DNA of 64,000 nucleotides from Ceratothoa steindachneri (Eukaryota; Arthropoda; Malacostraca; Isopoda; Cymothoidae): assembly GCA_963969495.1 (NCBI GenBank), contig OZ018320.1, forward strand, positions 71,771,745 to 71,835,744, in the 5' to 3' direction. Below are positions 3,471 to 57,991 of the stretch, in pieces. Each line of letters begins with the position of its first letter. Within the stretch, counting starts at the first letter, position 1. The notes below the pieces were generated by a model. That model had not been told where the DNA came from, did no database searches, and saw only the letters and a list, made by a program, of their open reading frames with translations. Made by a program: the position numbers and the translations under genes.

Positions 3471-4053
3471 ATGGCTACTGCCCTACTTTTTTATCGATCC
3501 TTTGTTCATTCGAAGCTCGACTACGGATGCGAGTTTTATGCATCCGCAGCCGAGCGTTTATCGTGGAAGGCGGAATCGATCCACCAGTCCGTCCTTCGCC
3601 TTGCGACCGGTGAATTCCGCAGCACTGAACCTCGTCTCTCGATATGCCGAAGCGCACAGGTTTCGGTTTTCTTTGGCCAAGACTAAGGTGGTGCACTTCT
3701 GCCGCCATCCACGGCTCCACCCCGACCCAGATTTGTTGTTTATTGGAGCGCGCCTGGATGTGGTTAAATCGCACCGTTTCCTTGGTCTTGTATTCACCCG
3801 ACGCCTTAGCTGGGAAGCTCAGGTTCGCACCCTTAGGGTCTGTTGTACCCGCGCCATGGATATTCTACGTTCCCTGACGTTCAGTGCTTGGGGCGCTGAT
3901 AGGGCTACTGCCTTACTTTTTTTATCGATCCTTTGTTCATTCGAAGCTCAACTACGAATGCGAGTTTTTTGCATCCGCAGCCGAGCGTTTATTGCGGAAG
4001 GTGGAATCGATCCACCACACCGGTGCATTCCGCACTTACTCCATTGGCTGCCT
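3194..4053 (+). repeat. 430-bp tandem duplication inside family A copy 2
   Basis: Sequence from about 3194 to 3623 (RT thumb, from ACTGAACCTCG) is repeated from 3624 to about 4053. For example, the block starting CTACGGATGCGAG at 3521 recurs at 3951 with one change. The junction at about 3622-3624 falls inside a codon run. The two units differ by scattered substitutions, so the duplication is not recent. Confidence 0.8.
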
Positions 4054-5244
4054 GGTTGGTCGATGCTGGGGAGATGCCACTCTCTCTACGCCGCGAGCAG
4101 TGCATTACTCGCATGTACGCGCGAGCCCGGCGCCTCCCTCATTCGCCAACAGCTCTCACTGCATCCGAAACTGATCTCGACGGTGTCTATGTCGTCGAGC
4201 GACGCCAGTCATACCCTAATCCCTTTGGGTTTAGGGCCAGCAAACTTATTCGAGAGCTAGGTATAGCTCTCGAGCCGGTTGCGCCTCTGGTTCTGCCCAG
4301 TACGCCACCCTGGAGGGTACCACATTTAGCTATTTGTCACCACGCCTCTCCTCCTAAAGCTTGTACAGCGCCGGGAGTATTGCGTTCGACCTTTTTGGAG
4401 CACACCTCGTTTCACGCTGGAACCGTGCCAGTATATACGGATGGCTCCAAGTCTAAATAAGGGGTCGGCTTCCACGCCGTATCCCCTCTGTTTGAAGTCA
4501 GCGGGGCTCTGCCAGGCGCTGCATCTGTCTTCACGGCCGAGCTGGTGGCAATACAGCACTCGGTACGGGAGATTAAGCGTAGTACCTGGTTCTGAGACCG
4601 GATTGTGTTCTATAGCGACTCACAAAGCGCCCTGCGTGCTCTCGGGTTATTGGAATCTCCGCATCCCCTGGTTCGCGATATCCGTGACGCCACGGTTTTG
4701 GCGAGCCGGGCGGATGTCGAGATTATCTTCTGCTGGCTTCCTGGACATGTAGGAATTGCGGGGAATGAGGGCGCCGAATAGTCTCTGAACCGGACCAGCG
4801 TTTCGCTCTTCCTCGCACTTACTACATGGCAGAAATACGGGCAGCTCTTCGGACTGCTTGGCAAAGAAGATGGAAGACGGTCAAAGGGAACCTAAAGTTG
4901 CGTGCCATTGCGCCGCGACTGTTCCTATGGACCTATCCCCCAATGCCGCGACGGATTCAGGTCGCTTTCTTTCTTCTCCGAATCGGACACACTTATGTGA
5001 CGCATCGCTATTTGATGGAGCGCTCACCTGGGCCCTATTGTGACGACTGCGTCGTCCCCCAGACTGTTCGGCACATTCTTGTCGAATGTCCCAGTCTGGT
5101 TGATCTTCGCGCTCGTTACCTGTCCCGTTCTGGGATGGGCGGGGTCGCTACCGCCTGTCCCTTGTACTCGGGTCGAGTGCGTGCACCATGACTCGTGGAC
5201 TGATAGACTTTTGGGGGGAGGCCGGCCTTCTCCCTTTTATTTAA
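3880..5244 (+). pseudogene. family A RNase H and C-terminus, copy 2
   Basis: This matches the C-terminal protein of copy 1. The YTDGSK motif sits near 4432-4452, followed by a stop (TAA) after Lys. SDSQSAL lies near 4616, and LPGHVGIAGNEG (copy 1: VPGHVGIAGNQR) near 4738-4768. A deletion after that removes the final RNase H Asp region. The CX2C..HX4C tail (about 5030-5090) survives. The frame ends near 5244 in the same residues as the other copies. It is inactive. Confidence 0.8.
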
Positions 5245-5465
5245 CTAGGTTTTGTTATTGTTTTCTTTTTAGGTCGTACGCTCCTACGCCGGGTGGAGGA
5301 GGACCTCTCCCTGACGCCGGAGTTTGCTTCCTCATTGTCTTCTCTCTTTATCGTTTTCTTTTCAATTTTTTATTTTAAAGTAGCCTAGAACTAGGCTGTT
5401 TTTGTTTGCGGCGACTAATGCCCAAGTGGGCAGTCGCCAGATAAGCCCCTTTTTAAAAAAAACTC

Positions 5466-12101: not shown

Positions 12102-13507
12102 TGGCGGCAACAAAAAAAGTGACATGTGACAATTCGGGGAAAATGAAACAGAAAAATGTAACTTACATATTTTATTATGAATATTTCATGAAAGTTAATA
12201 CTTGATCATGTTGCCCTTGCACTTGATGACCATTCTGAGTCGATTGGGCATTGATTCAGCGTGGTTTGCGAAGTAGGTGGGGTCGATCGTAACCCAGATC
12301 TTCTTCAGTGATTCTATCAGGTCCTTGATGCTGCCGGATGCTGTCTCTTGAACTTTGGATTTCATCAGATTCCAAGCATTCTCAATAGGATTTAGGTCCG
12401 GGGAATTACCAGGCCACTCCAAAACACTAATATTATTATCATTGAAGAACCTTTTTACTAACTGGGACCTGTGAGCAGGGGCACCATCATGCATGAAAAA
12501 TTCACACCGATGAATTTCCCAAAATGGCAGCATGTGCTGCTTCAAAACTTCGAGATAGTTAGTCCCCCTCATGGTTACATTCTTGGGAAGGAAGTACAGA
12601 CCTCCTCTGCCCTTGTTTCCACTAAAGGCACCCCACACCATCACACTATCAGGGTGCTTCACAGTTTTCACGGTATATTTTGGGTCATACCGAGACACAT
12701 TGCTGGGACGACGCACGATCTTTGACTCTCCTCTGACCAGCCTAAAGGTGCTCTCATCACTGAACATCACCTTCTTCCAATGGGCAGCTGTCCAATGTTT
12801 ATAGGTCTTGCAAAAATTGAGCCTTTTCATCTTCATAGCCTTGGTAAGAAGTGGCTTCTTGGCAGCGCGGCGAGCCGGTAGGCCTAAGTCCTTCTGTAAG
12901 CGATGACGGATGGTCCTGAGGGCGACTTTCTGGAGAAGGTCTGGGTGTTTTTTCTTGATTGAAGCGGAGGTTACAGAAGGGTCTGACATCACTTCACGCC
13001 TTAGGATATTATCAGTCCTTGGAGATGTCTTCCTAGCTGCACCAGTGCCCTCCTTCCTCTTTGGTATGGTACCTGGTGGCAATAACTCAGCTGCCCGTTT
13101 TAGGCGATAAATCGTATTTCTTGAGGTTCCTAAATCTGCTGCTACATCAATAAAAGACTTTCCCTGCTCTAATAGGGTCAAGGCACGGCTTTTCTCTGTC
13201 ATAAAAAGCTTTTTCCGCCCCATTGTATCCACTTGCACAGAAGTTATAGCACGTCAAATGTAGGCACGAATGCAGGAAATCAGCACGCTGGAGCGTTGTA
13301 CACCAAAACCTCACTGTACGAGCTCAAACGAGACAGTGAGTTCCAATAAAGCGCAGTTCTGTTGTCTTAGCTCAGGAGAGTCATCAACTCGTGGCATAAG
13401 CCCCGCCCCTTTTCATTGGCTTGTTGGCAAGTAAAATCGTGAAAGCGATTTTATGTATCGATTTCTATTGCCAATATTCAATGTCACTTTTTTTGTTGCC
13501 GCCACTG
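12099..13507 (-). mobile_element. complete Tc1 (DD34E) transposon
   Basis: The element is 1409 bp. Both ends carry the same 27-bp inverted repeat (12099-12125 and 13481-13507), starting CAGTGGCGGCAACAAAAAAA, with no mismatch. It is flanked by TA on both sides and encodes one uninterrupted transposase on the minus strand. Perfect ends and an open frame suggest recent arrival and possible autonomy. Confidence 0.95.
12195..13238 (-). CDS. Tc1-family transposase
   Basis: This 347-residue nuclear enzyme would cut and paste its own element at TA sites; Tc1 transposases are usually about 340 residues. Two helix-turn-helix units occupy roughly residues 14-50 and 85-120 for TIR binding. Basic segments (KRKEGTG, PARRAAKKP) may carry nuclear-localisation signals. 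The catalytic triad is Asp 161 (MFSDES), Asp 251 (HDGAPAH) and Glu 286 (NPIEN), with exactly 34 residues between the last two, i.e. DD34E. Residues 278-283 read NSPDLN. The start at Met 1 is used here, but Met 6 (MGRKK) is an equally good start and is closer to typical family N-termini. No stop, frameshift or missing catalytic residue is seen. Transcription is uncharacterised. Confidence 0.93.
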   Translation of the reverse strand: MQVDTMGRKKLFMTEKSRALTLLEQGKSFIDVAADLGTSRNTIYRLKRAAELLPPGTIPKRKEGTGAARKTSPRTDNILRREVMSDPSVTSASIKKKHPDLLQKVALRTIRHRLQKDLGLPARRAAKKPLLTKAMKMKRLNFCKTYKHWTAAHWKKVMFSDESTFRLVRGESKIVRRPSNVSRYDPKYTVKTVKHPDSVMVWGAFSGNKGRGGLYFLPKNVTMRGTNYLEVLKQHMLPFWEIHRCEFFMHDGAPAHRSQLVKRFFNDNNISVLEWPGNSPDLNPIENAWNLMKSKVQETASGSIKDLIESLKKIWVTIDPTYFANHAESMPNRLRMVIKCKGNMIKY

Positions 13508-15606: not shown

Positions 15607-16222
15607 TCAGCGGGAAAAAAATTGACCTGGAAGACAAAGTTGCGTACCAGAGACGAGGTCCGCAGCAGAGCAATTCAAATCCTCTTTCAAGGAGGCACGC
15701 ATTCCGAGGAGAATTAAGGGTAGCTTATCCACCCAAGCAAGTGATGTTGGGGTCAGTGGAGCGTAAGCATCCTTTGAGAGTCTTGTGTAAACGTTCCACC
15801 TTAGAGTTACTCTGGGGATGGTAGCTAGTGGTACGGAGACGAAAAGAGCCAAGCATTGACATGAGTGCATCCCATTGGTGGGATTCAAATTGGCTACCTC
15901 GATCAGTCATGATCGTTGATAGGACACCAAAACGAGCAACCCATGCTGCGACGAAGGCTCGAGTTACCATGGAAGCTCTGATGTCGGGAATAGGAACTGC
16001 CTCTGGCCAAGATGTAAAGGGATCTATCATGGTGAGAAGGTAAGTGCAACCACGCGAAAAGGGAAGAGGACCAACTAGATCGATGTGAACGGTGTCAAAA
16101 TGCGCTGATGGAAGTGATAAAGCAGCCAGATGGGACTTTGTGTGTCGTTGAACCTTTGCACGTTGATAAGAGAGACGTGCGTGGGTCCATTTGGCCACGT
16201 CGGCGTTCATATCTGGCCACAC
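15607..16222 (-). pseudogene. Gypsy integrase catalytic core
   Basis: Two overlapping frames (16222-15725 and 15888-15607) give the DDE core. The first Asp is in VHIDLVGPLPF, the second in IMTDRGSQFES and the Glu in SNSKVERLHKTLK, with 35 residues between the last two, matching DD35E. The second frame carries the downstream KEDLNCSAADLV..LCLPGQFF block. The upstream HHCC zinc finger is poorly preserved. Integrase inserts the cDNA into the host genome. All three catalytic residues remain, but the frame is broken near 15880 and before 16222. Confidence 0.88.
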
Positions 16223-16889
16223 ATAACGTTGTGTGATAAGCTTTCGAGTGGCTTAAAAATGTGCTGACGGTAAACGAGAGGAATGAGAGGACGAAGACAG
16301 TCAGGCATTGAATAATCAACGAGGAGGAAGTGTCCGGCAAGTCGATCTCGCGAACGACGAGTTGAGGAGAGTGACGCAGTGTTTGTGTGTCTTCATCTTG
16401 TTCCTGGGCAAGCGCTATTGTTGCATGATCGATGGGCGCAGTTTGGGAGAGTTGCGTACCCGAAATCGATGAAATGAGAGAGAGCGCATCTGGTACGACA
16501 TTTGAAGAACCAGGAACGTAGCGAATATCGTTTGTCATCTGCAGGATGAAGTCAAGGTGACGAGTATCAACTGCAGAGTAAACAGGGGAGGTGCTACTAG
16601 AGGCGAGCGCACCAACCAATGGCTTGTGGGCGGTAAAGACAGTGAATTCACACCCTTCCAAGTATTGTTGGAAGTGACGGAGTGCGAGGTATGTGCTCAG
16701 TGATTCACGGGAAAACGTACTGTACCTTTGTTGAGAAGGAAGAAGAGCTTTGGCGAAGAAAGCCCGTGGTTGCCAAGAGTCACCAACCTTCTGTTGTAGC
16801 GTCACACCGACATGAGTAGCAGATGCGTCCGAAGCAACGCTTATGGGAGCTCCTGGGCAAGGATGGGCCAGGGGGATAGCGAAAGCCAT
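16095..16889 (-). pseudogene. Gypsy RNase H domain and linker
   Basis: The open stretch (264 codons) encodes the Gypsy RNase H: VASDASATHVGVTL (first Asp), FSRESLSTYLALRHF (Glu) and TAHKPLVGAL, where the usual Asp before His-Lys-Pro is Ala. YVPGSSNVVPDALS ends the domain. RNase H degrades template RNA in the virus-like particle. The Ala substitution should impair activity if the reading is right. The tail after about residue 190 is out of frame relative to integrase. Confidence 0.85.
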
Positions 16890-17680
16890 AGCCTCTTTGG
16901 TGCGAGAGAAAGCCTCGCAAGCTTCGGGGGACCAGGAAAGAGGAAGGTATTCTTGGACTTGGAAAGCAATTCGTAGAGAGGTTGCATAATGTGGAAGATG
17001 TTGGAAATTAACCTGTGGTAAAAGTTTACCATCCCACAGAATCTACGAAGTTGCTTTAGCGAAGAGGGTCAGGAAAATCCCGATTACTTCAACTTTGTCC
17101 TCGAGAGGACGAATTCTCTCAGGAAAAATGTGGTATCCCAAAAAGGAGAGATGTGTGACACCAAAGATACACTTAGAAGTGTTGAGTACGATACCATACT
17201 CATCTAAACGTGCTAAAATCTGGCGAAGGTTAGAAAAATGCTCCTCTAAAGACGAAGATGCTATCAGGAGGTCGTCTATATAACAAAATACGAAGAGAAG
17301 ACCTCTCAGAACCTTATCCATAAAGCGTTGGAAGGTCTGACCAAGGTAACGAAGTCCGTAAGGCATTCGGTTCATGACGAAGGAACCGAATGGAGTGGTG
17401 ATATCCGTCTCAGAGATTTCAGCAGGGTGAAGCGGGATTTGGTTGAAAGCACGAACCAAATGGAACCGAGAAAAAATGGAGCAACCGAAGAGGGCGAAGT
17501 TAAAATCTGATAACAAAGGCAGAGGATATCTATTCGGAACTGTACAGGCATTGAGTCACATGTAGTCACCTACAGCTCTGAATTCTCACGAAGTAGACTT
17601 AGGTACTACGTGAAGCGGTAAAGCCCATAGGGAGGTGGATGGGGAAGCGATCCCGGCCTCCATCATGAACTTAAATTCCT
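16841..17680 (-). pseudogene. Gypsy reverse transcriptase
   Basis: Fragments in two or three frames join into one RT. The N-terminal block (around 17530-17680, RLALMKQEF style) is decayed. The palm at 17516-17043 contains FSRFHLVRAFNQIPLHP (first Asp of the family replaced by His in this reading), TPFGSFVMNRMPYGL, and a preserved YIDD box in FCYIDDLLIASSS. The connection region follows in 17032-16841. Family RT at this position is about 250 residues. It synthesised cDNA from the genomic RNA; stops and the altered first motif make it inactive. Confidence 0.87.
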
Positions 17681-23961: not shown

Positions 23962-26896
23962 TCAGTCCCATTTAGCAGCTTCATTCATATATTTATCTAA
24001 TCTATTCTTAAAACTACCCAGAGAGGAGGCTTCTATCACATGTCTAGTGAGCCTATTCCATTCATCTACCACACGATTTGTAAACCAATTCCTCCCAATC
24101 TCCTTCCTAAACCTATACTTATCAAGCTTAAACCCATTGCTACGTGTCCTGTCATGTTCACTAAGTATAAGAACCTTACCTAGATCCCCTTTATTATATC
24201 CTTTTACCTATTTGAAGACTTCAATCAATTCCCCTCTGACTCTTCTCCTTTCCAATGTATGTAGATTTAGTTTTCTGAGCCTTTCACCATAAGGTAAGTT
24301 CCTTAGCCCACCAATCATCTTTGTCATCCTTCTCTGCACAGACTCAAGCAAATCAATATCCTTCCTATAATATGGTGACCAAAATTGTACTGCATAGTCT
24401 AGATGAGGCCTAACTAGCGCCAGATACAGTTTTAGAATGACTTCAGCACTCTTATTGCTTACACTCCTCCTAATGAATCCCAATATCCTATTAGCTTTAT
24501 TCTTAGCATTTAGGCATTGCTTTCTAGGACGAAGGTCTGAACTTACCAAAATACCCAAGTCCCTCTCACAATCGGTCCTCCCTAAATTTCTCCCATTTAA
24601 TTTATAACTATTCAGTGGATTATTTCTACCTATACTAAGTACACTACATTTGTCTATGTTAAACTTCATTTGCCATTTCTCAGCCCAATTGGACAGAATG
24701 GTCAATTCCTCCTAAATTACAACAGCATCAGAATCAGCCCTAATGGTCCTACCTAGCTTAGTATCATCAGCAAATTTACTCAGGTCACTACTTATACCTA
24801 TGTCAAGATCATTAATATAAATTAAGAATAGCAAGGGACCCAAAACAGATCCTTGCGGAACTCCACTGCTAACACCCCCCCACTCAGATTTAACTCCATC
24901 TATACTAACTCTTTGCTGTCTGTCACCAAGCCATGACTGAATCCACCTAAATATACTGCCATCGATCCCGTGTGCTTTAACTTTGCTCAGAAGCCGTAAG
25001 TGTGGCACTCGATCAAAAGCCTTACTAAAGTCCAAGTATAAAATATCATAGTTTTCATCCTTATCTGTTGCTTCATACACCTTACTATAAAAAGACAGCA
25101 AATTAGTCAGGCAGGATTTACCCTTACTAAAGCCATGCTGTGATTCTTTTATCAACTTATGCTTATCCAAGTGATCCCTAATATTCCTTGCTATAATAGA
25201 TTCCATCATTTTCCCTACCACTGATGTCAAACTTACTGGTCTGTAATTAGACATATTTGTTTTATCCCCTTTCTTAAATATAGGTATCACATTGGCTTTC
25301 TGCCATGCCACTGGCACAATGCCACTCTCCAATGATTTTCTAAAGATGCATGCTAGGGGCTCACTTAACACATCCTTACATTCTTTCAAAATTCTAGGAA
25401 AGACCTCATCAGGACCGGGTGCTTTACTACTTTTGATTTTATCAATTTCCTTTGTCACTATCTCCTTTGTGATCAAGATATCCTTTAATTTCTCTTCATC
25501 ATTACCCCGAAAGATCATTGACACCTCGGGTATATTTAGAGTATCCTCCTGTGTAAATACTGAGAGAAAAAAGTCATTTAGCATTCCAGCCATTGAGTCC
25601 CTATCACTCACTAATTCTCCATTGGAATCTATAAGTGGGCCTATTTTATCTCTAACCTTAGTTTTGTATAATTGATAAAAACTTTTAGGATCTTCCTTTG
25701 CCCTATTTGCCACTTTAATTTCATAATTTCTCCTTGCTACTCTAACTAACCTTTTAACATCTCTTGCTAGTTCATTATATCTCTGCCTTAAGTGATCCTC
25801 TCCATTTTTTATTTTCCTATAAATGCCCTTTTTAATGCCAATATAATGCTTAATTTTATCTGTCATCCATTTTGGGTCATTATTTTTAGTCCTAATCTCC
25901 TTATAAGGAATGTTTAATCATCTGACCTGTAATTAATTGCTCAATTATTCTTTCATACTCCTCTTCAATTGTAATCTCTTCCTCCTGGTGATTATTGTCT
26001 CCACTAACTGATATCATTGAATCTATTCCTGAATTGATTTCATTGCCTGGTTTCTGTACAACTGCCTCCAGGTAAGTCCTTAGCCCATTATAATTTGCTC
26101 TTCTAAAGTCAGGAATTTTAACATTGTTCATGCTACTATCAATACCATTCCATTTCATCTTGAATCTAATTTCACAATGGTCACTATTACCCAAATTTCC
26201 TCCAATCTCAGTATCCTTAATAACTTCTTCCCTATTTGTCAGAACTAAATCCAGTATATTATTACCTCTAGTGGGTTCGTTAATAATCTGCCTCAGAAAA
26301 TTATCTTGGACAACATTCAAAAATTCCTCAGCCTCCTGATCACCCACAAGAGCTTTCCAGTCTATATTTCTGTAATTAAAATCGCCCATTATACACACAT
26401 GCTTACTTCTACATGCCCGTTCAATCTCCTGCCACAGAAGATTTGAAGCTTCCTTACTAAGATTTGGTGGTCTGTATAATAATCCTATGACAAGCTTGTT
26501 TTTACCTTCCTTTACATTTAGCCATAATGACTCTGTGTTATCATCTAATTTAATTGTACTGTTTACACAACACTGGAGATTATCTTTAATATAAATAATA
26601 ACCCCTCCTCCTCTCTTCCTATTCCTATCTGTATGGAACATGTTAAAGCCCTCAATCTCAACCTCAGGTTTAAAGTGATTTCCTGCCAAATCAAGCCATG
26701 ACTCTGTTATCGCAATTATATCAAAATTCTCTTCACTCGCTAACGCTCTTAAGAGATCTATCTTATTCCTTATACTCCGACCATTTGTGTAGTATATTTT
26801 TAAGTTTTTTTTATTATTCCCATCTTCATTGCATCGTGCTTTTCTATTCCTAGTTATCTGCTCATTCACTTGTGCATTAGTCCCCCTATAACGCAT
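23962..26896 (-). pseudogene. CR1 ORF2: endonuclease and reverse transcriptase
   Basis: The reading spans about 978 codons, the usual CR1 ORF2 length. The APE endonuclease (26896-25901) has a YTNGRSIRNK start, ITESWL (catalytic Glu), MGDFNYRNIDW and GNSDHCEI (final Asp-His). A one-base frameshift near 25901-25915 leads into the RT (25866-24208): [36 protein letters not shown] (Asp), [20 protein letters not shown] and the FADD box. Two in-frame TAG codons interrupt it: 24712-24714, probably once CAG, and 24208-24210. After the latter the frame continues through DEWNRL to the TGA at 23962. The enzyme nicks target DNA and reverse-transcribes its RNA there. Only three lesions disable it. Confidence 0.92.
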
Positions 26897-26994
26897 CAGT
26901 ATGCCCTTTCCCTTAGCTATTCCTCTATCTCTGCATCCCTTCCATTTCCTACACCTGCCCTCTATTCCTGTTATTCCCTTACCTCTAACAGCTT

Positions 26995-28014
26995 CTAGTT
27001 TCCCACCCGTAAGGACCTAATCACACTATCCAGCTCCCCCCATAGAACCTCAACACCTGCCCGACTAAGATGGAGCCCATCCATCGCATACAACCTCCTA
27101 TTCCCGTAAAACCCTCCCCAGACATCTACAAACACCAATCCTAACTCCTCACACAGTCCTTTCACAAATTTATTCAAACCAATTGCACGCGACAACCATT
27201 CTACCCCCACATCCAATCTTGGAAGCACACCAGAAACAACACCTTTTACCCTGCTTTTACTCATCCTTTCAACTAACCTTTTATACTGCTCACGTAACTC
27301 ACATGTACCCACCTTCTTTACATCATTCACTCCCACATGCGTAATCACAACTGCATCCCTCTCACACCCAGAAACCAGTCTATCATACCTCTCACAAACA
27401 TCACTTACACCAGCACCCGGCAGACAAACTCTCATTCCCTTCCACTTGCTATCACTCAACTTCCTATCTAAATACCTAATCTGAGAGTCACCCATCACTA
27501 GCACCTCAGTCATTCTCCTATTCTGTCTTGGCCTAACATTACCCTCCCTCCTGCTCTCAGTCACACTACCACCCATCCTACTTTTATCCACAATCACACC
27601 AGGCAAATCACTTTCACACTCTTCCTCTCTCAGGACATTGAATCTGTTAGTCAACCTAACAGGTTCTATGTCCCTCTCATTCACACACCTAACCTGTCCT
27701 AACTTATCTATCCTATCCATTTTCACCCACCATTCATCATCACTCACAACTTCCACACTGTTCCCAGTCCTAGCCCTATCTTCCACCCTCTTAGCACTAA
27801 TCTCACCCTTCAATCGCACACTTGCATCTCTTCTCACCTCAAACACCAAATCATTCAACCTCTTACATTCCCCACTCAACCTCCTAACCTCCCCTTCCAG
27901 AAAACACACACGGCATTCAGTTACATTCACTCTCCTTTCAACTCCACATGCATCACACACCACATACACACTACTTTCAAACGGCATGCTCTCACCATCT
28001 ATACAAACAGCCAT
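26995..28014 (-). CDS. CR1 ORF1 protein with zinc finger, coiled coil and SGNH esterase
   Basis: An uninterrupted 339-codon frame precedes ORF2 by about 100 bp, as expected for CR1 ORF1. Residues 17-40 hold a CDACGVERRVNVTECRVC zinc-binding pair of CX2C motifs. Residues 38-75 are charged and heptad-like (likely coiled coil). From about residue 168 an SGNH/GDSL hydrolase fold is readable: VMGDSQIRYLDRK (Ser), HVGVNDVKK (block III Asn-Asp) and MDGLHLSRAG (block V Asp-His). CR1 ORF1 proteins bind element RNA; the esterase role in vivo is unsettled. Ser, Asp and His remain. The frame is open although ORF2 is broken. The start at Met 28014 is the first in frame; Met 10 (MPFES) is an alternative. 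Confidence 0.88.
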   Translation of the reverse strand: MAVCIDGESMPFESSVYVVCDACGVERRVNVTECRVCFLEGEVRRLSGECKRLNDLVFEVRRDASVRLKGEISAKRVEDRARTGNSVEVVSDDEWWVKMDRIDKLGQVRCVNERDIEPVRLTNRFNVLREEECESDLPGVIVDKSRMGGSVTESRREGNVRPRQNRRMTEVLVMGDSQIRYLDRKLSDSKWKGMRVCLPGAGVSDVCERYDRLVSGCERDAVVITHVGVNDVKKVGTCELREQYKRLVERMSKSRVKGVVSGVLPRLDVGVEWLSRAIGLNKFVKGLCEELGLVFVDVWGGFYGNRRLYAMDGLHLSRAGVEVLWGELDSVIRSLRVGN

Positions 28015-28267
28015 ACTCTCAGAAATTTACTAAGGAAAAAGTTAACACTCACCCCCAAAAATTCTTGCTCAGGATTGCTGCCAGTTATCTTCCCCAAAAG
28101 TATTAATCACTAATGTATTTATTACACAGTGATTGATGTATTAAATAAATACAAGAAAAACTATACACCCAAATCAGTATTATATCCCAATCTTACAATG
28201 AGAATCAAGAGCTTCCTGCAAGACAACCTTCCAGAACAAAGCCAGACGGCCCCTCACTTTGTTGAAT

Positions 28268-48396: not shown

Positions 48397-48810
48397 TGTA
48401 GATTGAGTCATAGGGTGAATACCATCGACTTAAACAAAAGCGGTGTGTCCAGATCAAAGACATGAATTCATTTATTTATCTGACTCCATATTCTTGTTGG
48501 CTGTGTTAGTTCTTCTTTAAGTTGGCTGGGTTAATTCTTGATCTTCTTTTCTCGATGTATCTTCCTTTTAACAAGGATGTGATGATTCCTTCCAATTCTG
48601 ATGACGTGATGATTTCTTGAGAGTTGAGGAGGTCTTGATGCTTCTTGACGATTTTGATGGGATGAGACGAGTTAGCCCTTGAAAGTCGATTTCTTTCCGT
48701 TTTCCTTGACAGCGGTTTTCTCTTGAGTTGATTTCTTGAGTAGTCCTTAAAGCGTTTTTCGTGGTCTCCGTTTTCTTCGAGAATTTTATTTGTAAAAATT
48801 TGTGGACTTT

Positions 48811-48872
48811 GAGAATCGATCGTGGGTATTTTGAATCTCGACGCAAGCACTCTACCATTACGCCAAGGCGTA
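48811..48872 (-). other. tRNA-like segment with Pol III A and B boxes, copy 1
   Basis: Minus strand: TGGCGTAATGG fits the A-box consensus TRGYNNARNNG and GATCGATTC fits the B-box GWTCRANNC at tRNA-like spacing. The acceptor and anticodon stems do not fold cleanly, so it is a tRNA pseudogene or the head of a SINE. Confidence 0.5.
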
Positions 48873-49080
48873 GTCCGTGATGATTCCTTCCAATTTTGAT
48901 GACGTGATGATTTCTTGAGAGTTGAGGAGGTCTTGATGCTTCTTGACGATTTTGATGAGATGAGATGTGTTGAGACGAGTTAGCCCTTGAAAGTCGATTT
49001 CTTTCCGTTTTTCTTGACAGCGGTTTTCTCTTGAGTTGATTTCTTGAGTTGTCCTTAAAGCGTTTTTCCTTGTGGACTTT

Positions 49081-49142
49081 GGGGATCGATCGTGGGTCTT
49101 TTGAATGCCGAGGCAAGCACTCTACCATTACACCACGGCGTA
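49081..49142 (-). other. tRNA-like segment with Pol III A and B boxes, copy 2
   Basis: Minus strand: TGGTGTAATGG (A box) and GATCGATCC (B box), both exact to consensus. The middle reads GCTTGCCTCGGCATTC. Isotype cannot be assigned. Confidence 0.5.
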
Positions 49143-49274
49143 GTCCGTACTGATTTGTTAATTTAATGGGCTATTTATATTCTCGCTTTGGAAGGAAGTT
49201 GTTATCTTATATATCTTCACACCCCTACAAATTATTGGACCAGACTATGAGCAATTCTACGACATATATAAAAG

Positions 49275-49559: not shown

Positions 49560-50396
49560 GTTGCGTCAGCAAGAGCAGCAATGGCTTCCTAATCGTTCGA
49601 AGTTTTCGTCAAGCAAAGACAAGCTCTCGGTCTCACAGGACAGGAACTTAAGGAATTTGTCCAAAGCGAACAGCGAAAGGAAAGAGCACGTGAAATGGAA
49701 GTAAGAAAAGAAGCGTTAGAATTGGAAGAAAGGAGAAGAAAAGAAGTGTTAGAATTGGAAGAAAGGAGAAGAAAAGAAGAGTTAGAATTTGAAGAAAGAG
49801 AAAGGATTCGAAAACATGAAAGGGAATTAAGCAGAGACTAAGTTGAAGTCAGTTCTGTTGGATCCCGTGATCACCAACCCAAGGCCCCCTCTATGAAATT
49901 TTCCCAATATAAAGACGAAGAAGATTTGTGCTGATACTTAACACATTTTGAAAAGATGTACGAGGTAAACAGATGGGCCATAGAATCCGAAGGAGTCAGA
50001 AGATTGCTCCCATTGCTTAGTCCGCACTTAAGAGAAATTTTCATCGCGTTACCACATGAAGCTACAATAGACTATAACACCTTGAAGGCCAAATTGCTAT
50101 CCACCTGCAACTTGAACCCTCAGTTCTACCGCACTAAGTTTAGATCGGCTAAAATCCAGCCCGGTCAAACTTACCGACATTTTGGATATATCCTGAAGCG
50201 AAACCTCCAGTTCTGGCTAGAATCCTCCAAAGTCAAATCGGAGTATGAGGCCCTGATTAACTTTATGTTAAAAGACCAGCTATTGTCCACCTTCCCCCAG
50301 GAGATCCGAGCATTCGTGCAAGACCGCCGAGCGTCTACCTTTCAAGAATGCATAGAGGAGGCTGATCTCCATGCGACAGGATACCCGGAAGAATAG
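49560..50396 (+). pseudogene. Gmr1-like Gypsy gag
   Basis: The N-terminus is a charged coiled coil (about 49650-49840) made of repeats of REMEVRKEALELEERRRKE style. After a TAG near 49840 and a TGA near 49930 the frame from 49956 (146 codons) encodes a SCAN-like capsid: SPHLREIFIALP, YNTLKAKLLSTCNLNPQFYR, FMLKDQLLSTFPQEIRAFVQ and CIEEADLHA. The SCAN domain of vertebrate proteins derives from this gag type. Gag assembles the particle. Two stops separate coil and capsid. Confidence 0.75.
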
Positions 50397-51210
50397 TCCC
50401 CCGTGCCCGAAGAATAAATTTAGTCAATGGAAGTCCCAACAAAGAAAACCCCCTCCATTGATAAAGACCACAGCCCTGTTCAGGCCAAAGAATAAGCCTT
50501 TTGTAGCCCACGAAGACAGAAAACCCCCAGTCTTCAATAACCAGCACCAGAATAAGCAGGTTATATGCTACTCCTGCGGTTTTCCCGGCAATTATAAGTC
50601 CCAGTGTGTACAGAATTCCAGCCTACGTCCCACCCAGAGCCAACAAGTTCACCAAGTAACCGCTACCCTTCCCCCGGAACAGCCGGCCGCGCTTACGTTA
50701 TCCCCCTCGTCTCCATACCTACAGGAATTTCAAGTGAACTTCCTGTTCAACAAGAGTACCCCCGGAGAACTAAATTTCGAAACCGGCTCGATCAATGGCT
50801 ATAAAGTGTCCACCCTCGTCAGAGACACAGGGTGCACATGCATTGTGATATCAGACAAATTGCTTCCCCCTGTCGACCCCCAACATAAGAAGTACGCAAT
50901 TGTACACGACTTCTTGGGTCGAGAAAATAGATTCCCGGTAATCCGCTGCCATGTACAGTGTAAATATTTTACTGGTTGGGCCGACGTAGTGGCAGCCCAC
51001 ATCAAATTTTGCTCGGTATTCATTGGCCAGAGCGCACTACTCTCCCCGAGTGAAGTGACTCAAGCTGTCGTCACTCGAGCGCAAGCTAGCTGTGAGGCCT
51101 CTCCCCCAACGCGCCTTTTCACCCCAGAGGCTCCTTTAGAGGTCCCAACGAGTAATGCACAATTTCTCAGAGCTCAGCAGAGCTGCCCTTTACTTCAATC
51201 CCTTTGGTAA
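50371..51210 (+). pseudogene. Gmr1-like zinc knuckle and protease
   Basis: The open frame (279 codons) overlaps the gag end. A zinc knuckle reads ICYSCGFPGNYKSQC, with the usual His replaced by Asn. The retropepsin has LVRDTGCTCIVIS (active-site DTG) and a later FIGQSALLSPSEV block. The linker AVVTRAQASCEAS leads towards integrase. The frame stops at TAA 51208-51210, but the same frame continues as integrase, so protease and integrase are collinear and separated by one nonsense codon. Confidence 0.78.
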
Positions 51211-51640
51211 AAGACCCGAAAGAACGAAGAGGTGATCGTTCGAGGGAACCGTCCCATAAGGTACATCATTAACAACTCCCTTCTGTTTCGCACCTCGCGA
51301 GATGAGTCTAACCCACCTTCCAAGGTCATGTGTATTCCGCGCACACATGTAGACCAAATCCTGCGAGGAGCACATGAAAGTCCCATGGCCGGTCATTTCG
51401 GTCATAACAAGACTTCTCAGCGAGTATTTAAATACTTTTTTTGGGCCCGGTGCAGCCAAAGATATTGCAGAATTCTGCAAAACGTGCGATTTGTGCCAGA
51501 AAACCACGGCAAAAGGTCGAATAGCCCCAGCTCCCCTGCAAAGAACCTTAGTTATTTCAGAACCATTCTCGAGAGTCGCCTTCGACGAAGAAACGGTAAT
51601 TGACGCCGTCCACCCAAACAACCCCCTAAATATTGTTAAT
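51211..51640 (+). pseudogene. Gmr1-like integrase N-terminus (core deleted)
   Basis: In frame with the protease: IVRGNRPIRYIINNSLLFRT, then CIPRTHVDQILRGAHESPMA and GHFGHNKTSQRVFKYFFW. After a slip near 51440 it reads IAEFCKTCDLCQKTTAKGRI. The His-His-Cys-Cys zinc finger (AHE, GHF, CKTC, CQK) is complete. EPFSRVAFD near 51565-51590 marks the first catalytic Asp. The rest of the DDE core is missing and RT coding begins about 100 bp later. Confidence 0.78.
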
Positions 51641-51649
51641 TCGATTTGC

Positions 51650-52605
51650 GTAGAGTCAAGCGAAGATTGTCCCCTCCCCGTCCTTCCGTCCAAGCTGCCC
51701 CCATAAAAGAACCTTTGCCCGAGTTGGATGTAAACTCCGACCTCACTCCTGCCCAAAGGAACCAAATGATAGCGCGTTGGAAGAATTTAGTGACGTCATT
51801 TCCGAGTCACCAGGATGCTCGACTCAGTTCGAACATGATATCGCCCTCACTACGCTCGAACCTGTGCGATTTAAGCCTTATCCCGTACCGGTGCTCCTAA
51901 GAGACGCTTTCAATGAGGAAGTCGACAATCTTTTGCAATTAGGGATTATCGAGCTATCTACGTCTGACTACTGTTCCCCAATAGTCATGGTCCGCAAGCC
52001 AGACCAGTCCTTTAGGATGTGCGTCGATTTTCGGAAGCTAAACACCGTCACCGTGCTCGACGCCGAGCCTCTTCCCCTACTTGAGCAAAATTTACATCTC
52101 TTCGAAGGAGCCGCCAACATCAGATCCCCCTAAAGGCATCAGCGAGGAAACTAACAGCCTTTCCTACAGACAAAGGTTTAATAGAATTCACTCGTCTGCC
52201 TTTTGGCCTAGTCACTGCCTGCAGTAGCTACAACCGCATAATGCGCGGTGTAATAGACGGTTTAAAAAGCGTTTCTTTTATTTTGATAACGTGTATGTGG
52301 CTACACGTTCATGGAACGACCATATCTTGTCCCTCCGCCCGCTTTTAGAACGCTTAAAGCATCATGGCTTGACGATTAAACATTCAAAATGCCATTTTTC
52401 TTATAAATCCATAGAATACCTTGGATTTTAAATAGGCGAAAGTCATCTGGCCCCACAGAAAGAGAAGGCAAAGGCTATTGTAAATATGCCCCTACCGCGC
52501 ACCAAGAAGCAATTACGGTCTTTCCTCGGTGCCGCTTCGTACCCCAATTCGCTTCTGTAGCAGCTCCTCTAAACGATATGCTAAAAAGAAACTCCCGGGC
52601 CCCCT
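51650..52605 (+). pseudogene. Gmr1-like reverse transcriptase
   Basis: The N-terminal part reads LTPAQRNQMIARWKN, FSDVISESPGCSTQFEHDI, VRFKPYPVPVLLRDAF and DYCSPIVMVRKPDQSFRMCV, then DFRKLNTVTVLDAEPLP. A short deletion near 52130 removes the first catalytic block. It resumes with FPTDKGLIEFTRLPFGL (52160-52205). The YxDD box near 52280 reads YFDNVYV, so the second Asp is Asn. The connection region (LRSFLGAAS) runs to about 52560. Cut by Tc1 at 52605. Confidence 0.82.
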
Positions 52606-52609
52606 CCAA

Positions 52610-53845
52610 AATAATTGGAACAGTAGAAATTTAACACCAATATTTCAATGAGCCATTATATTACGAATATACATCAAATTTCATTGTGAGTGTTTTGTTT
52701 GTATTGTTGATACATAGTTCTATTTATCAAGTTTAATGATTATTTGTATTTCTTTTTCAGATCGTGGTATAGATGCTAAGATGCGTGACTTCACTGTGTT
52801 TGAAAGAGGGCAAATCGTTGTAGCTCGAATTGCAGGAGCTTCCGTCGCCAGAACAGCTAAACTCCTTGGTTTTTCGATAGATACCATATCAAGGACCGTG
52901 ACATAATTTAATAAGCAGGCCAAAACCTCAAGCAGGAGGAGTAATTCCAGCGGGACTTCGAATCTCACTGAAAGAGACCGACGAGTGTTGAAACGCATTG
53001 TGATGAAAAATCCCCGAACATCTGCCCCTAATGTGACTGCAGACCTCAATCAACATCTCACTAGCCCAGTTTCGACCCAAAACTGTTCGCCGTGAGCTCA
53101 ATAAAGCCGGATATCATGGAAGAGCCGCCATCAAAAAACCTCTGCTTTCTCATCAAAATATTTAGAAAAGGCTGAACTGTTGTAGAGATTACAAGGGCTG
53201 GTCGACAGACCAATGGAAGCAAGTAATATTCTCCGACGAGTCCAGTTTTTCTCTTTTTCCCCACTGCAGGGCGAGTTTATGTGTGGAGGCAACCCGGGAA
53301 GACTTTAATCCTGATTACCTTCTTCCTTCAGTAAAGCACGGAGGATGGTCAGTGATGATTTTGGCAGGCATATCTTTGAATTGTCTTGGTTTAATCGTTG
53401 CCCTGCATGGTACGATCAACAGCAACGAATATCATAATATTTGGAAGATCAAGTCCATCTCATGATCCAGAGATTATTCCCTTTTGGTGAGTTTTTGTTC
53501 CAAGATGACAATGCCCCAATACATACCGCTCAAGTGTTTAAGAATTGGTATGAAGAGCATAGGAATGAGCTACAACACATAATGTGGCCCAACAATCTCG
53601 AGATCTTAATATTATTGATCATTTGTGGTGCCTCTTGGAGTGAAAAGTTAGAAGTCGTATCTAAAACAGCTGGAACAGGTATTGTAAGAAGAATAGCTCA
53701 AAATTCCTCTCAATGAATTCAGGAAGCTATATGAATCAATTCCAAGCCGCATCGACACTGTTCAGAAAGCAAAAGGAGGACCAATTACGTATTGAATAAA
53801 TATTCATTGAATTTAACACTTGTTCCAATTATTTTTTTATAACTC
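52610..53845 (+). mobile_element. Tc1-like transposon, decayed
   Basis: The left end AAAATAATTGGAACAGTAGA and right end, reversed, AAAAATAATTGGAACAAGTG are inverted repeats. The interior encodes a broken Tc1 transposase. It is inserted in the Gmr1-like RT/RNase H region. Confidence 0.8.
52781..53800 (+). pseudogene. Tc1-like transposase, broken
   Basis: Starts MRDFTVFERGQIVVARIAG with a helix-turn-helix (ASVARTAKLLGFSIDTISR), then a stop. The second binding unit (LKRIVMKNPRTSAPNVTADL) precedes a decayed catalytic domain: SDESSF-like residues near 53235, GGWSVMILAGIS near 53340 and FQDDNAPIHTAQVFKNWY (second Asp) near 53500. The Glu region has decayed near 53600. The C-terminus ESIPSRIDTVQKAKGGPITY is typical. 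About ten lesions. Confidence 0.8.
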
Positions 53846-54025: not shown

Positions 54026-54950
54026 TACGAGGGGCGGTCAATAAGTTTTGCGAATCGGTAGGGCAAAACTGAGGAAGGGGGATGGCTGTTTGTGGAAGTG
54101 TTAGGACAAGTTATGACAAGTCAGGACCTGCAGCTGCACGCTCCTGCCTTGTCTATTTAAGAAGCAGTCAATGGTCGCAGATCGTCAGTCACAAATTTTT
54201 CAACAATGGAGAAGGTTGAGCACCACGCAGTGATCAAATCTTTGACCAAGGAAGGCAAAAATGCAAAAGAGATCCATGAACGCATGGTTGCAGTGTACAC
54301 TGACACCGCCTCTTTCTATGCTACCATTGCTCGCTGGAATAGGAAGTTCCACCATGGTCGTGAGTCCCTTGAAGATGAACCCTGTATAAGACGCCTGTCA
54401 GACGTGACCAACGATGACAATGTGGCCAGCATGGAGAGGATGATCCTCGAAATCGACGGGTAAAGGTCGAAGAAATCGAGCGAGAACTTGGAATATCACA
54501 TGGAAGTGTTATCAACATGATCCACGACAATTTGGCCATGACTAAGGTCTCTGCCCGTTGGGTCCCTAGAAACCTGACGCCCCATGATCGACTTCAACGT
54601 CGTCAAAGTCCACAAGGCCAGAGTTGCACAAGCTGCCCTGCGCGAGTGCAGATTTGAGGAGCTTAACGGTCCCCCCTATAGTCCAGATCTGGCCCCTAGC
54701 GACTACTTTTTATTCCGCCAAACCGGCGTGGACGCCGGTTTGGGGACGATGAAGATGTCCAGCTCGCCGTCCGGGAGTGGATTGAACAGCAGTCGGGAGA
54801 TTTCTGGTTGTCGGTAATTTGAAGCCTCAGGGACAATTGGCGCAAGTGCATTGAAGTCGAGGGTAGTTATATTGAAAAATAATTAAACAGTTTTCCTAAT
54901 ATCTCGTTTCTTTATATCCGAATTGCAAAACTTATTGACTTCCCCTCGTA
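54026..54950 (+). mobile_element. mariner with internal deletion
   Basis: TIRs TACGAGGGGCGGTCAATAAG (left) and, reversed, TACGAGGGGAAGTCAATAAG (right) start with the TA target. The element is only 925 bp because about 400 bp of the transposase are missing near 54600. Confidence 0.85.
54206..54840 (+). pseudogene. mariner transposase, internally deleted
   Basis: Starts MEKVEHHAVIKSLTKEGKNA with the mariner helix-turn-helix, followed by AVYTDTASFYATIARWNRKF. A slip gives KVEEIERELGISHG and RWVPRNLTPHDR (mariner WVPHEL motif as WVPRNL). Deletion of the first two catalytic Asp regions follows. PPYSPDLAPSDYFLF (final Asp) survives at about 54672-54717. A C-terminal frame slip follows. Inactive. 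Confidence 0.82.
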
Positions 54951-56535: not shown

Positions 56536-57991
56536 TTTTTTTTTTTTAATTAAGGGGCTATCTGGCGACTGCCGACTTAGGCATTAGTCGCCGTAAACAA
56601 ACAGCCTAGTTCTAGGCTACTTTAAAAATTAAACAGGAAACAATAAAAAGAAATAACAATAACAATAAAAAAGCAATAACAAAAACAACAACAACAATTA
56701 AACCGGGTTAAATGAAAGAGAGAAGGCCAGCCTTCCCCAAAAAGTCAATAAGTCCACCAGTCGATGTGCACGCACTCATCCCGAGTACAAGGGACAGGCG
56801 GTAGCGACCCCGCCCATCCCGGTACCGGGACAGGTGTCGTGCGCGAAGATCACCCAGACTGGGACATTCGACAAGAATGTGCCGAACAGTCTGGGGGACG
56901 ACGCAGTCGTTGCAATAGGGCGCAGGCGAGCGCTCCATCAGATAGCGATGCGTCACACGAGTGTGTCCGATTCGGAGACGACAGAAAGCAATCTGAAGCC
57001 GCCGCGGCATTGGGGGATAGTTCCATGGGAACAGTCGCGGCGCAATGGCACGCAACTTTAAGTTCCCTTCGACCGTCTCCCATCTTCTTTGCCAAGCAGT
57101 CCGAAGAGCTGCCCGTATTCCTGCCATGTAGTCGGTGTGAGGAAGAGCGAAACGCTGGTCCGGTCGCAGAGTCCTCGCGGACTCTTTGGCGCCCTCATCG
57201 GCACGCTCATTCCCCGCAATTCCTACATGTCCAGGAACCCAGCAGAAGATAATCTCGACATCTGCCCGGCTCGCCAAAACCGTGGCGTCACGGATATTGC
57301 GAACCAGGGGATGCGGAGATTCCAATGCCAGAAGAGCACTCATGGCGCTTTGTGAGTCGCTATAGATCACAATCCGGTCTCCGAACCGGGCACGTCGCGT
57401 AATCTCCCGTACCGAGTGGTGTATTGCCACCAGCTCGGCCGTGAAGACAGACGCAGCGCCTGGTAGAGCCCCGCTGACTTCAAACAGAGGGGATACGGCG
57501 TGGAAGCCGACCCCCTCTTGGGACTTGGAGCCATCCGTATACACTGGCACGGTACCAGCGTGACACGATGTGTGCTCCAAAAAGGTCGAACGCAATACTC
57601 CCGGCGCAGTACAAGCTTTGGGAGCAGAGGCGTGGCGACAAATAGCCAAATGTGGTACCCTCCAGGGTGGCGGCCTGGGCAGAACCAGGGGCACCACCGG
57701 CCCGAGAGCTATATCTACTTCTCGAAGGAGTTTCCTGGCCCTAAACCCAAAGGGCTTAGGGTATGACTGGCGTCTCTCGGCGGCATAGGCACCATCGAGA
57801 TCAGCTGCGGATGCAGTGAGAGCTGTTGGCGACTGAGGGAGGCGCCGGGCTCGCGCGTACAGTCGAGTGATACACTGCACGCGGCGCAGAGCGAGTGGCA
57901 TCGACCAACAGGCTCTCAATGGGGGAAGTGCGGAAGGCACCGGTCGCAAGGCGAAGGCCGGTGTGGTGGATCGAATCCACCTTCCGCACCG
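56536..57991 (-). mobile_element. family A copy 4, 5'-truncated recent insertion
   Basis: A poly(T) run (56536-56547, the poly(A) tail reversed) starts the element; the truncated 5' end is at 57991. Exact 11-bp duplications flank it. It interrupts the Penelope-like gene between RT and GIY-YIG. It has the cleanest family A coding sequence in the window. Confidence 0.93.
56708..57949 (-). pseudogene. family A ORF2 C-terminus, best-preserved copy
   Basis: An open 413-codon frame encodes the RT end, RNase H (YTDGSK, TAELVAIHH, YSDSQSAM, WVPGHVGIAGNERADEG) and the tail YCNDCVVPQTVRHILVECPS, with no stop. All four acidic RNase H residues and the CX2CX7HX4C motif remain. The upstream RT is absent because reverse transcription ended early, so the protein would have no genuine start; the first Met (57949) is internal. 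A small deletion near 57900 relative to copy 1 (LVNAGEM block) is present. Confidence 0.88.

Follow-up and report, generated by a model that had tools for sequence, protein, structure and literature searches.

In the window (the whole stretch of 64,000 nucleotides analyzed here), a six-frame reading combined with Pfam and BLAST searches places gag with a SCAN match, protease, an integrase zinc finger and reverse transcriptase (RT) in succession on the plus strand at about 49,863–52,613. The gag capsid region (49863–50375) contains a match to PF02023 (SCAN; E = 1.2×10−6, 28.7 bits against a cut-off of 27) at approximately 50121–50354, inside an open frame of 49935–50396, and aligns with residues 74–219 of L001, an intact element described below, at 27% identity over 147 aa (E = 1.5×10−18). 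The SCAN-like gag proposed in the first-pass annotation therefore stands, as the match exceeds the curated Pfam cut-off; the extent proposed there, 49956–52605, identifies the right locus but falls short at both ends, since in TBLASTN gag homology extends back to 49863, across a stop, and RT homology ends at 52613. Ahead of the capsid region, an open frame at 49593–49838 on the same strand is rich in E, R and K, carries a 33-bp tandem repeat and gave no match in a Pfam scan; it may encode an N-terminal coiled-coil stretch of gag, and repeats likewise lie directly ahead of the gag ORF of L001. Behind the capsid region, a decayed gag zinc knuckle (C-x2-C-x4-N-x4-C, plus strand, 50566–50607) can be read from the frame, with Asn where His is expected, and a zf-CCHC match in L001 likewise sits between gag and protease.

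The aspartic protease region (plus strand, 50743–51177) bears an RDTGC motif at 50821–50835 and is similar to L001 residues 403–553 (29% over 154 aa, E = 2.3×10−6). Pfam returned no protease match in the protease frame of the window or in L001, and a protein search with the protease ORF retained none of 572 candidates at E ≤ 0.001; the region is thus named protease because of its DTG motif and its position. The frame 50356–51210 carries both the zinc knuckle and RDTGC and closes with an in-frame TAA (51208–51210, plus strand) at the protease/integrase boundary, beyond which the same frame runs on to 51603, so that protease and integrase share one frame with this single stop between them. A single TBLASTN alignment also spans the two (window 50743–51471, L001 residues 403–655, E = 6×10−15). 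The integrase piece (plus strand, 51328–51586) comprises the HHCC zinc finger and the start of the core, up to the first core Asp. Integrase_H2C2 (PF17921) is matched in both of the frames concerned (E = 3.7×10−9, 37 bits against a cut-off of 25.5, and E = 1.4×10−5), with the H-H pair in the protease frame (51373–51405) and the C-C pair in another (51476–51496). A complete zinc finger had been claimed in the protease frame after one TAA; the TAA and the H-H pair are indeed there, but the C-C pair is frame-shifted. The piece corresponds to L001 residues 605–690 (matches 605–655 and 636–690) and to residues 3–31 of P0035, a protein of the sea cucumber Apostichopus japonicus (52% over 29 aa, pairwise E = 6×10−7), and the latter match stops at the same Asp at which the integrase of the window breaks off. 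A comparison of the integrase piece with solved structures gave no matches.

BLASTP found nothing in the window that corresponds to L001 residues 691–1029, a stretch of 339 aa with the C-terminal domain and most of the integrase core. Integrase similarity to L001 stops at 51586 and RT similarity sets in at 51777, leaving 190 bp, not the approximately 100 bp proposed earlier, against about 1017 bp in L001; some 0.83 kb would thus be missing if the spacing was alike. We regard the plus-strand interval 51587–51776 as the scar of an internal deletion and possibly as an integrase–RT linker. This linker shows weak similarity to P0001, a protein of Plakobranchus ocellatus, in a single pairwise comparison (E = 3×10−4), and no match at E ≤ 0.01 in a wider comparison with 125 proteins. 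The L001 stretches 220–402 and 554–604 likewise lack BLASTP matches, and the window has room for both.

RT (plus strand, 51777–52613) runs from fingers to thumb and is split over several frames, with five ordered matches to L001 residues 1030–1323 (E = 4×10−33 to 2×10−5). One piece matches RVT_1 below the cut-off (E = 2.8×10−5, 24.4 bits against 29.6), and no retroelement family was found in Pfam for the other two RT pieces scanned or for the protease frame. Among solved structures, the first RT piece matches 4ol8 (E = 2.5×10−10) and the Ty3-G chain 7q5b (E = 1.5×10−9). Where YxDD is expected, the window has YFDN, aligned to FVDD of L001. No match to the RNase H part of L001 (residues beyond 1323) was found on the plus strand of the window, beside the element or further on, and no flanking LTR was seen in a self-comparison of the window; a complete LTR retrotransposon is flanked by LTRs and has RNase H behind RT, and we read the absence of both here as loss. 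Adjoining the 3′ end of the element is a Tc1/mariner-like relic (plus strand, 52608–53835) with 15-nt inverted arms at 52608–52622 and 53821–53835 and a helix-turn-helix match. We take this relic to be of Tc1 type from the look of its frames, and its Pfam matches are to helix-turn-helix families only.

The window holds several other repeats. A fragment of a Mos1-type mariner transposase, with an HTH_48 match, lies at 54161–54460, and the minus strand carries, at 12195–13253, an open Tc1-like transposase frame of 352 aa that matches DDE_3 and HTH_Tnp_Tc3_2. Three copies of a LINE-type 3′ region (260–1767, 3993–5462 and 56536–57988) are 84–90% identical, the third being inverted, and the two that were scanned, the first and the third, both contain an RNase_H domain. 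Long open frames on the minus strand at 24712–28026 match endonuclease and RT and belong to a non-LTR element. At 48579–49155, a unit of about 300 bp is repeated in tandem at 80% identity; by eye it has a tRNA-derived look on the minus strand, and ARAGORN found no tRNA in it. Neither Rfam families nor tRNAs were matched anywhere in the window. The repeat set as a whole may be crustacean-like.

The pieces were compared with L001, one of five loci that an alignment of 10 relatives retrieved from bacterial and archaeal genome contigs. It is a 5441-bp contig (JAQRGB010000044.1) in a MAG of Candidatus Thiodubiliella and presumably represents contaminating DNA of the animal host of that symbiont. 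Its single intact ORF of 1476 aa encodes gag, protease, integrase, RT and RNase H, with Pfam matches to SCAN at 137–222 (19.7 bits, below the cut-off), zf-CCHC at 304–321, H2C2 at 607–663, rve at 683–779, SH3_Tf2-1 at 915–959 (23.1 bits, below the cut-off), RVT_1 at 1101–1259 and RNase H at 1351–1453. Pieces of the window that cover gag, protease, integrase and RT give nine matches, and these rise in order along the polyprotein (residues 74–219, 403–553, 605–655, 636–690, 1030–1140, 1144–1209, 1208–1256, 1262–1296 and 1299–1323), and neighboring matches overlap by no more than 20 residues. The real plus strand reaches 112 bits against L001, whereas the best of 200 dinucleotide shuffles reaches 25 bits.

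Integrase ahead of RT is also found in single natural proteins. P0035 has rve at 24–120 followed by RVT_1 at 260–363 in one chain, and matches an RT piece of the window as well (47% over 104 aa, pairwise E = 2×10−30); an integrase C-terminal match was looked for in it and not found. When the RT piece alone was run against 5.8 billion proteins, four of 25 candidates passed E ≤ 0.001. The best of them, P0001, is 45% identical with the window RT over 132 aa and has Integrase_p58_C at 7–37, then RT-type sequence. Among 10 relatives that were domain-scanned, six have both an integrase C-terminal domain and RVT_1, the integrase domain being first in all six; the remainder are P0035, with rve first, and three with only one of the two domains. 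In a larger set of 121 proteins (the four RT-piece relatives and 117 among the 120 listed of 3971 profile-search matches), the integrase C-terminal match lies before RT in all 73 proteins that have it and after RT in none, a count biased toward the integrase-first order because the profile-search query contained the integrase C-terminus; the other 48 have no such match. The HMM for this domain was built from 8 of the 121 proteins, which are counted within them, and RT positions were taken from BLAST matches, as a simple RT motif missed RT in 37 of the 121. Searches of viral contigs with the RT piece, the integrase piece and two alignments gave no confirmed relative, and nothing useful came of searching genome contigs with the RT piece alone, or of TBLASTN searches with the RT piece in phages and with the integrase piece in plasmids.

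An RT tree was built from 124 rows cut to the 113-residue segment of the window, with P0003 and P0084 of the 125 proteins dropped as too short. The window RT groups most closely with P0040 and P0034 (support 0.40); no integrase match lies upstream in either, although P0040 extends for some 148 residues ahead of its RT motif. The window RT falls within a group of 13 that includes P0001 (support 0.75), with integrase upstream in 7 of the 13, and its tree distance is 1.30 to L001 versus 2.28–2.42 to L002, L003 and L005, the last represented by one RT segment. Support is low at the deep nodes (0.04 at one of them), and the conventional controls are not monophyletic. As far as these sequences go, the tree, in which the window was compared without any named Gmr1 sequence, is uninformative on clade membership.

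It might be argued that a deletion or a nested insertion joined two conventional Gypsy copies, each with the order protease–RT–RNase H–integrase, and thereby brought the integrase end of one copy in front of the RT of the other. The interval 51587–51776 is a genuine scar, and a Ty3/Gypsy element of conventional order does exist in the same window on the minus strand at 15728–17555 (RT 17046–17555, RNase H 16098–17042 and integrase 15728–16252); beyond it, open frames without Pfam matches continue to about 20648. Such a fusion, however, would also need an in-frame protease–integrase fusion at nearly the spacing of L001, and both integrase and RT of the window match single natural proteins in integrase–RT order (P0035 and L001). 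The conventional elements fit less well. L002 has protease matches just below the cut-off, RT at 420–578, RNase H, H2C2 at 951–1006 and rve; on L002 and on L003 (compared by sequence search alone) the pieces of the window align with integrase behind RT. RT scores 70 and 76 bits with these two, as opposed to 111 with L001, and at E ≤ 10−3 neither the L002 pol, nor the L002 gag ORF, nor L003 yielded a match to gag or protease. The order at the window locus is thus not the conventional one, and it is real rather than a product of fusion, because the nine matches rise in order on one intact polyprotein; we reject two fused copies on the collinearity with L001 and P0035 and consider them very improbable.

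The gene order by itself would be compatible with a Ty1/Copia element, in which protease–integrase–RT is the default. Its RT, however, matches Ty3-type enzymes (7q5b) and Gypsy-type polyproteins, its integrase has the H2C2 domain PF17921, relatives have SH3_Tf2-1 or p58_C domains, and its gag has a SCAN match. The types of RT and integrase eliminate Copia as a candidate that we could seriously entertain, RVT_1 being the sole RT family matched in Pfam. Nor is it credible, beyond the slightest chance, that the locus is a host gene domesticated from a Gmr1-like gag or integrase: excerpts of published work trace the SCAN domains found in host proteins back to Gmr1-like gag (PMC4592553, PMC3424704, PMC3406341) and describe vertebrate genes of Gypsy origin (PMC3424704), but the stops, the frame changes, the lost integrase core, the YFDN in RT and the Tc1-like relic at the end of the element all speak of decay.

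We are highly confident that a single Gmr1-like Ty3/Gypsy LTR retrotransposon has decayed at this locus and that its ancestor had the order gag(SCAN)–protease–integrase–RT–RNase H. Of the first-pass annotation, the following is borne out: integrase precedes RT, as seen from Pfam and the collinearity with intact L001; the element is of Ty3/Gypsy type despite its Copia-like order, as seen from the RT matches; and its organization is Gmr1-like, given the order in L001, the SCAN match and the integrase C-terminal domain upstream of RT in P0001. LTR retrotransposons move by an established route, and by analogy the ancestor would have gone through transcription, packaging in Gag particles, processing by the protease, reverse transcription and integration, with integrase released from upstream, not downstream, of RT. 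On this reading the copy subsequently lost the internal part from just past the first integrase-core Asp to near the RT start, acquired stops and shifts of frame, and was deprived of RNase H and its 3′ end where the Tc1-like relic now sits. Judged from its sequence, the copy is probably inactive and incapable of moving by itself, because of the stops, the frame changes, the loss of most of the integrase core, the YFDN motif and the absence of RNase H and of any LTR-like flanking repeat.

Gmr1-like (Gmr1 clade) Ty3/Gypsy retrotransposons were reportedly treated by Goodwin and Poulter in 2002. Excerpts of later papers describe integrase upstream of RT in these elements (PMC3587641, PMC8220671, PMC6238403), and in frogs SCAN is stated to occur in more than 50% of Gmr elements and in Gmr elements only (PMC4131045). 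The first-pass annotation had suggested that such an element, in a presumed arthropod, would extend their range. In the available text of a 2013 paper, however, Gmr1-like elements are already recorded from decapod crustaceans (hydrothermal shrimps, a spider crab and a prawn) and are called the first from any protostome (PMC3587641); an arthropod record is thus not new. Excerpts also place such elements, later, in an annelid (PMC8220671) and list Gmr1 among the clades present in several phyla (PMC8556966), and the available part of an ostracod survey does not report the integrase-before-RT order (PMC7998251). If the host is an arthropod outside the decapod crustaceans, the copy could be a first Gmr1-like record for its lineage, with a SCAN-type gag kept outside vertebrates, which we consider unlikely. 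What the locus adds is one more instance of the rarer Gypsy gene order with a SCAN-type gag adjoining, and its remaining value lies in repeat annotation of the host genome.

Compared with its relatives, the window copy is collinear with L001 over gag, protease, integrase and RT at 27–49% identity, whereas in L001 one unbroken ORF still includes the integrase core and RNase H. P0035, which comes from a deuterostome and begins inside integrase, likewise has the integrase core and then RT, and matches both the integrase and RT pieces. From the members of the Gmr1-like clade the window copy differs in being fragmentary: it lacks LTRs, RNase H and most of the integrase core. It shares with that clade integrase before RT, Gypsy-type RT and integrase and a SCAN-type gag, and by description rather than by sequence it can be likened to GyRex4, Gychoro2, GyMaja1 and GyLiva4, the crustacean elements named in the available text of PMC3587641, which represent the Gmr1 clade in decapod arthropods.
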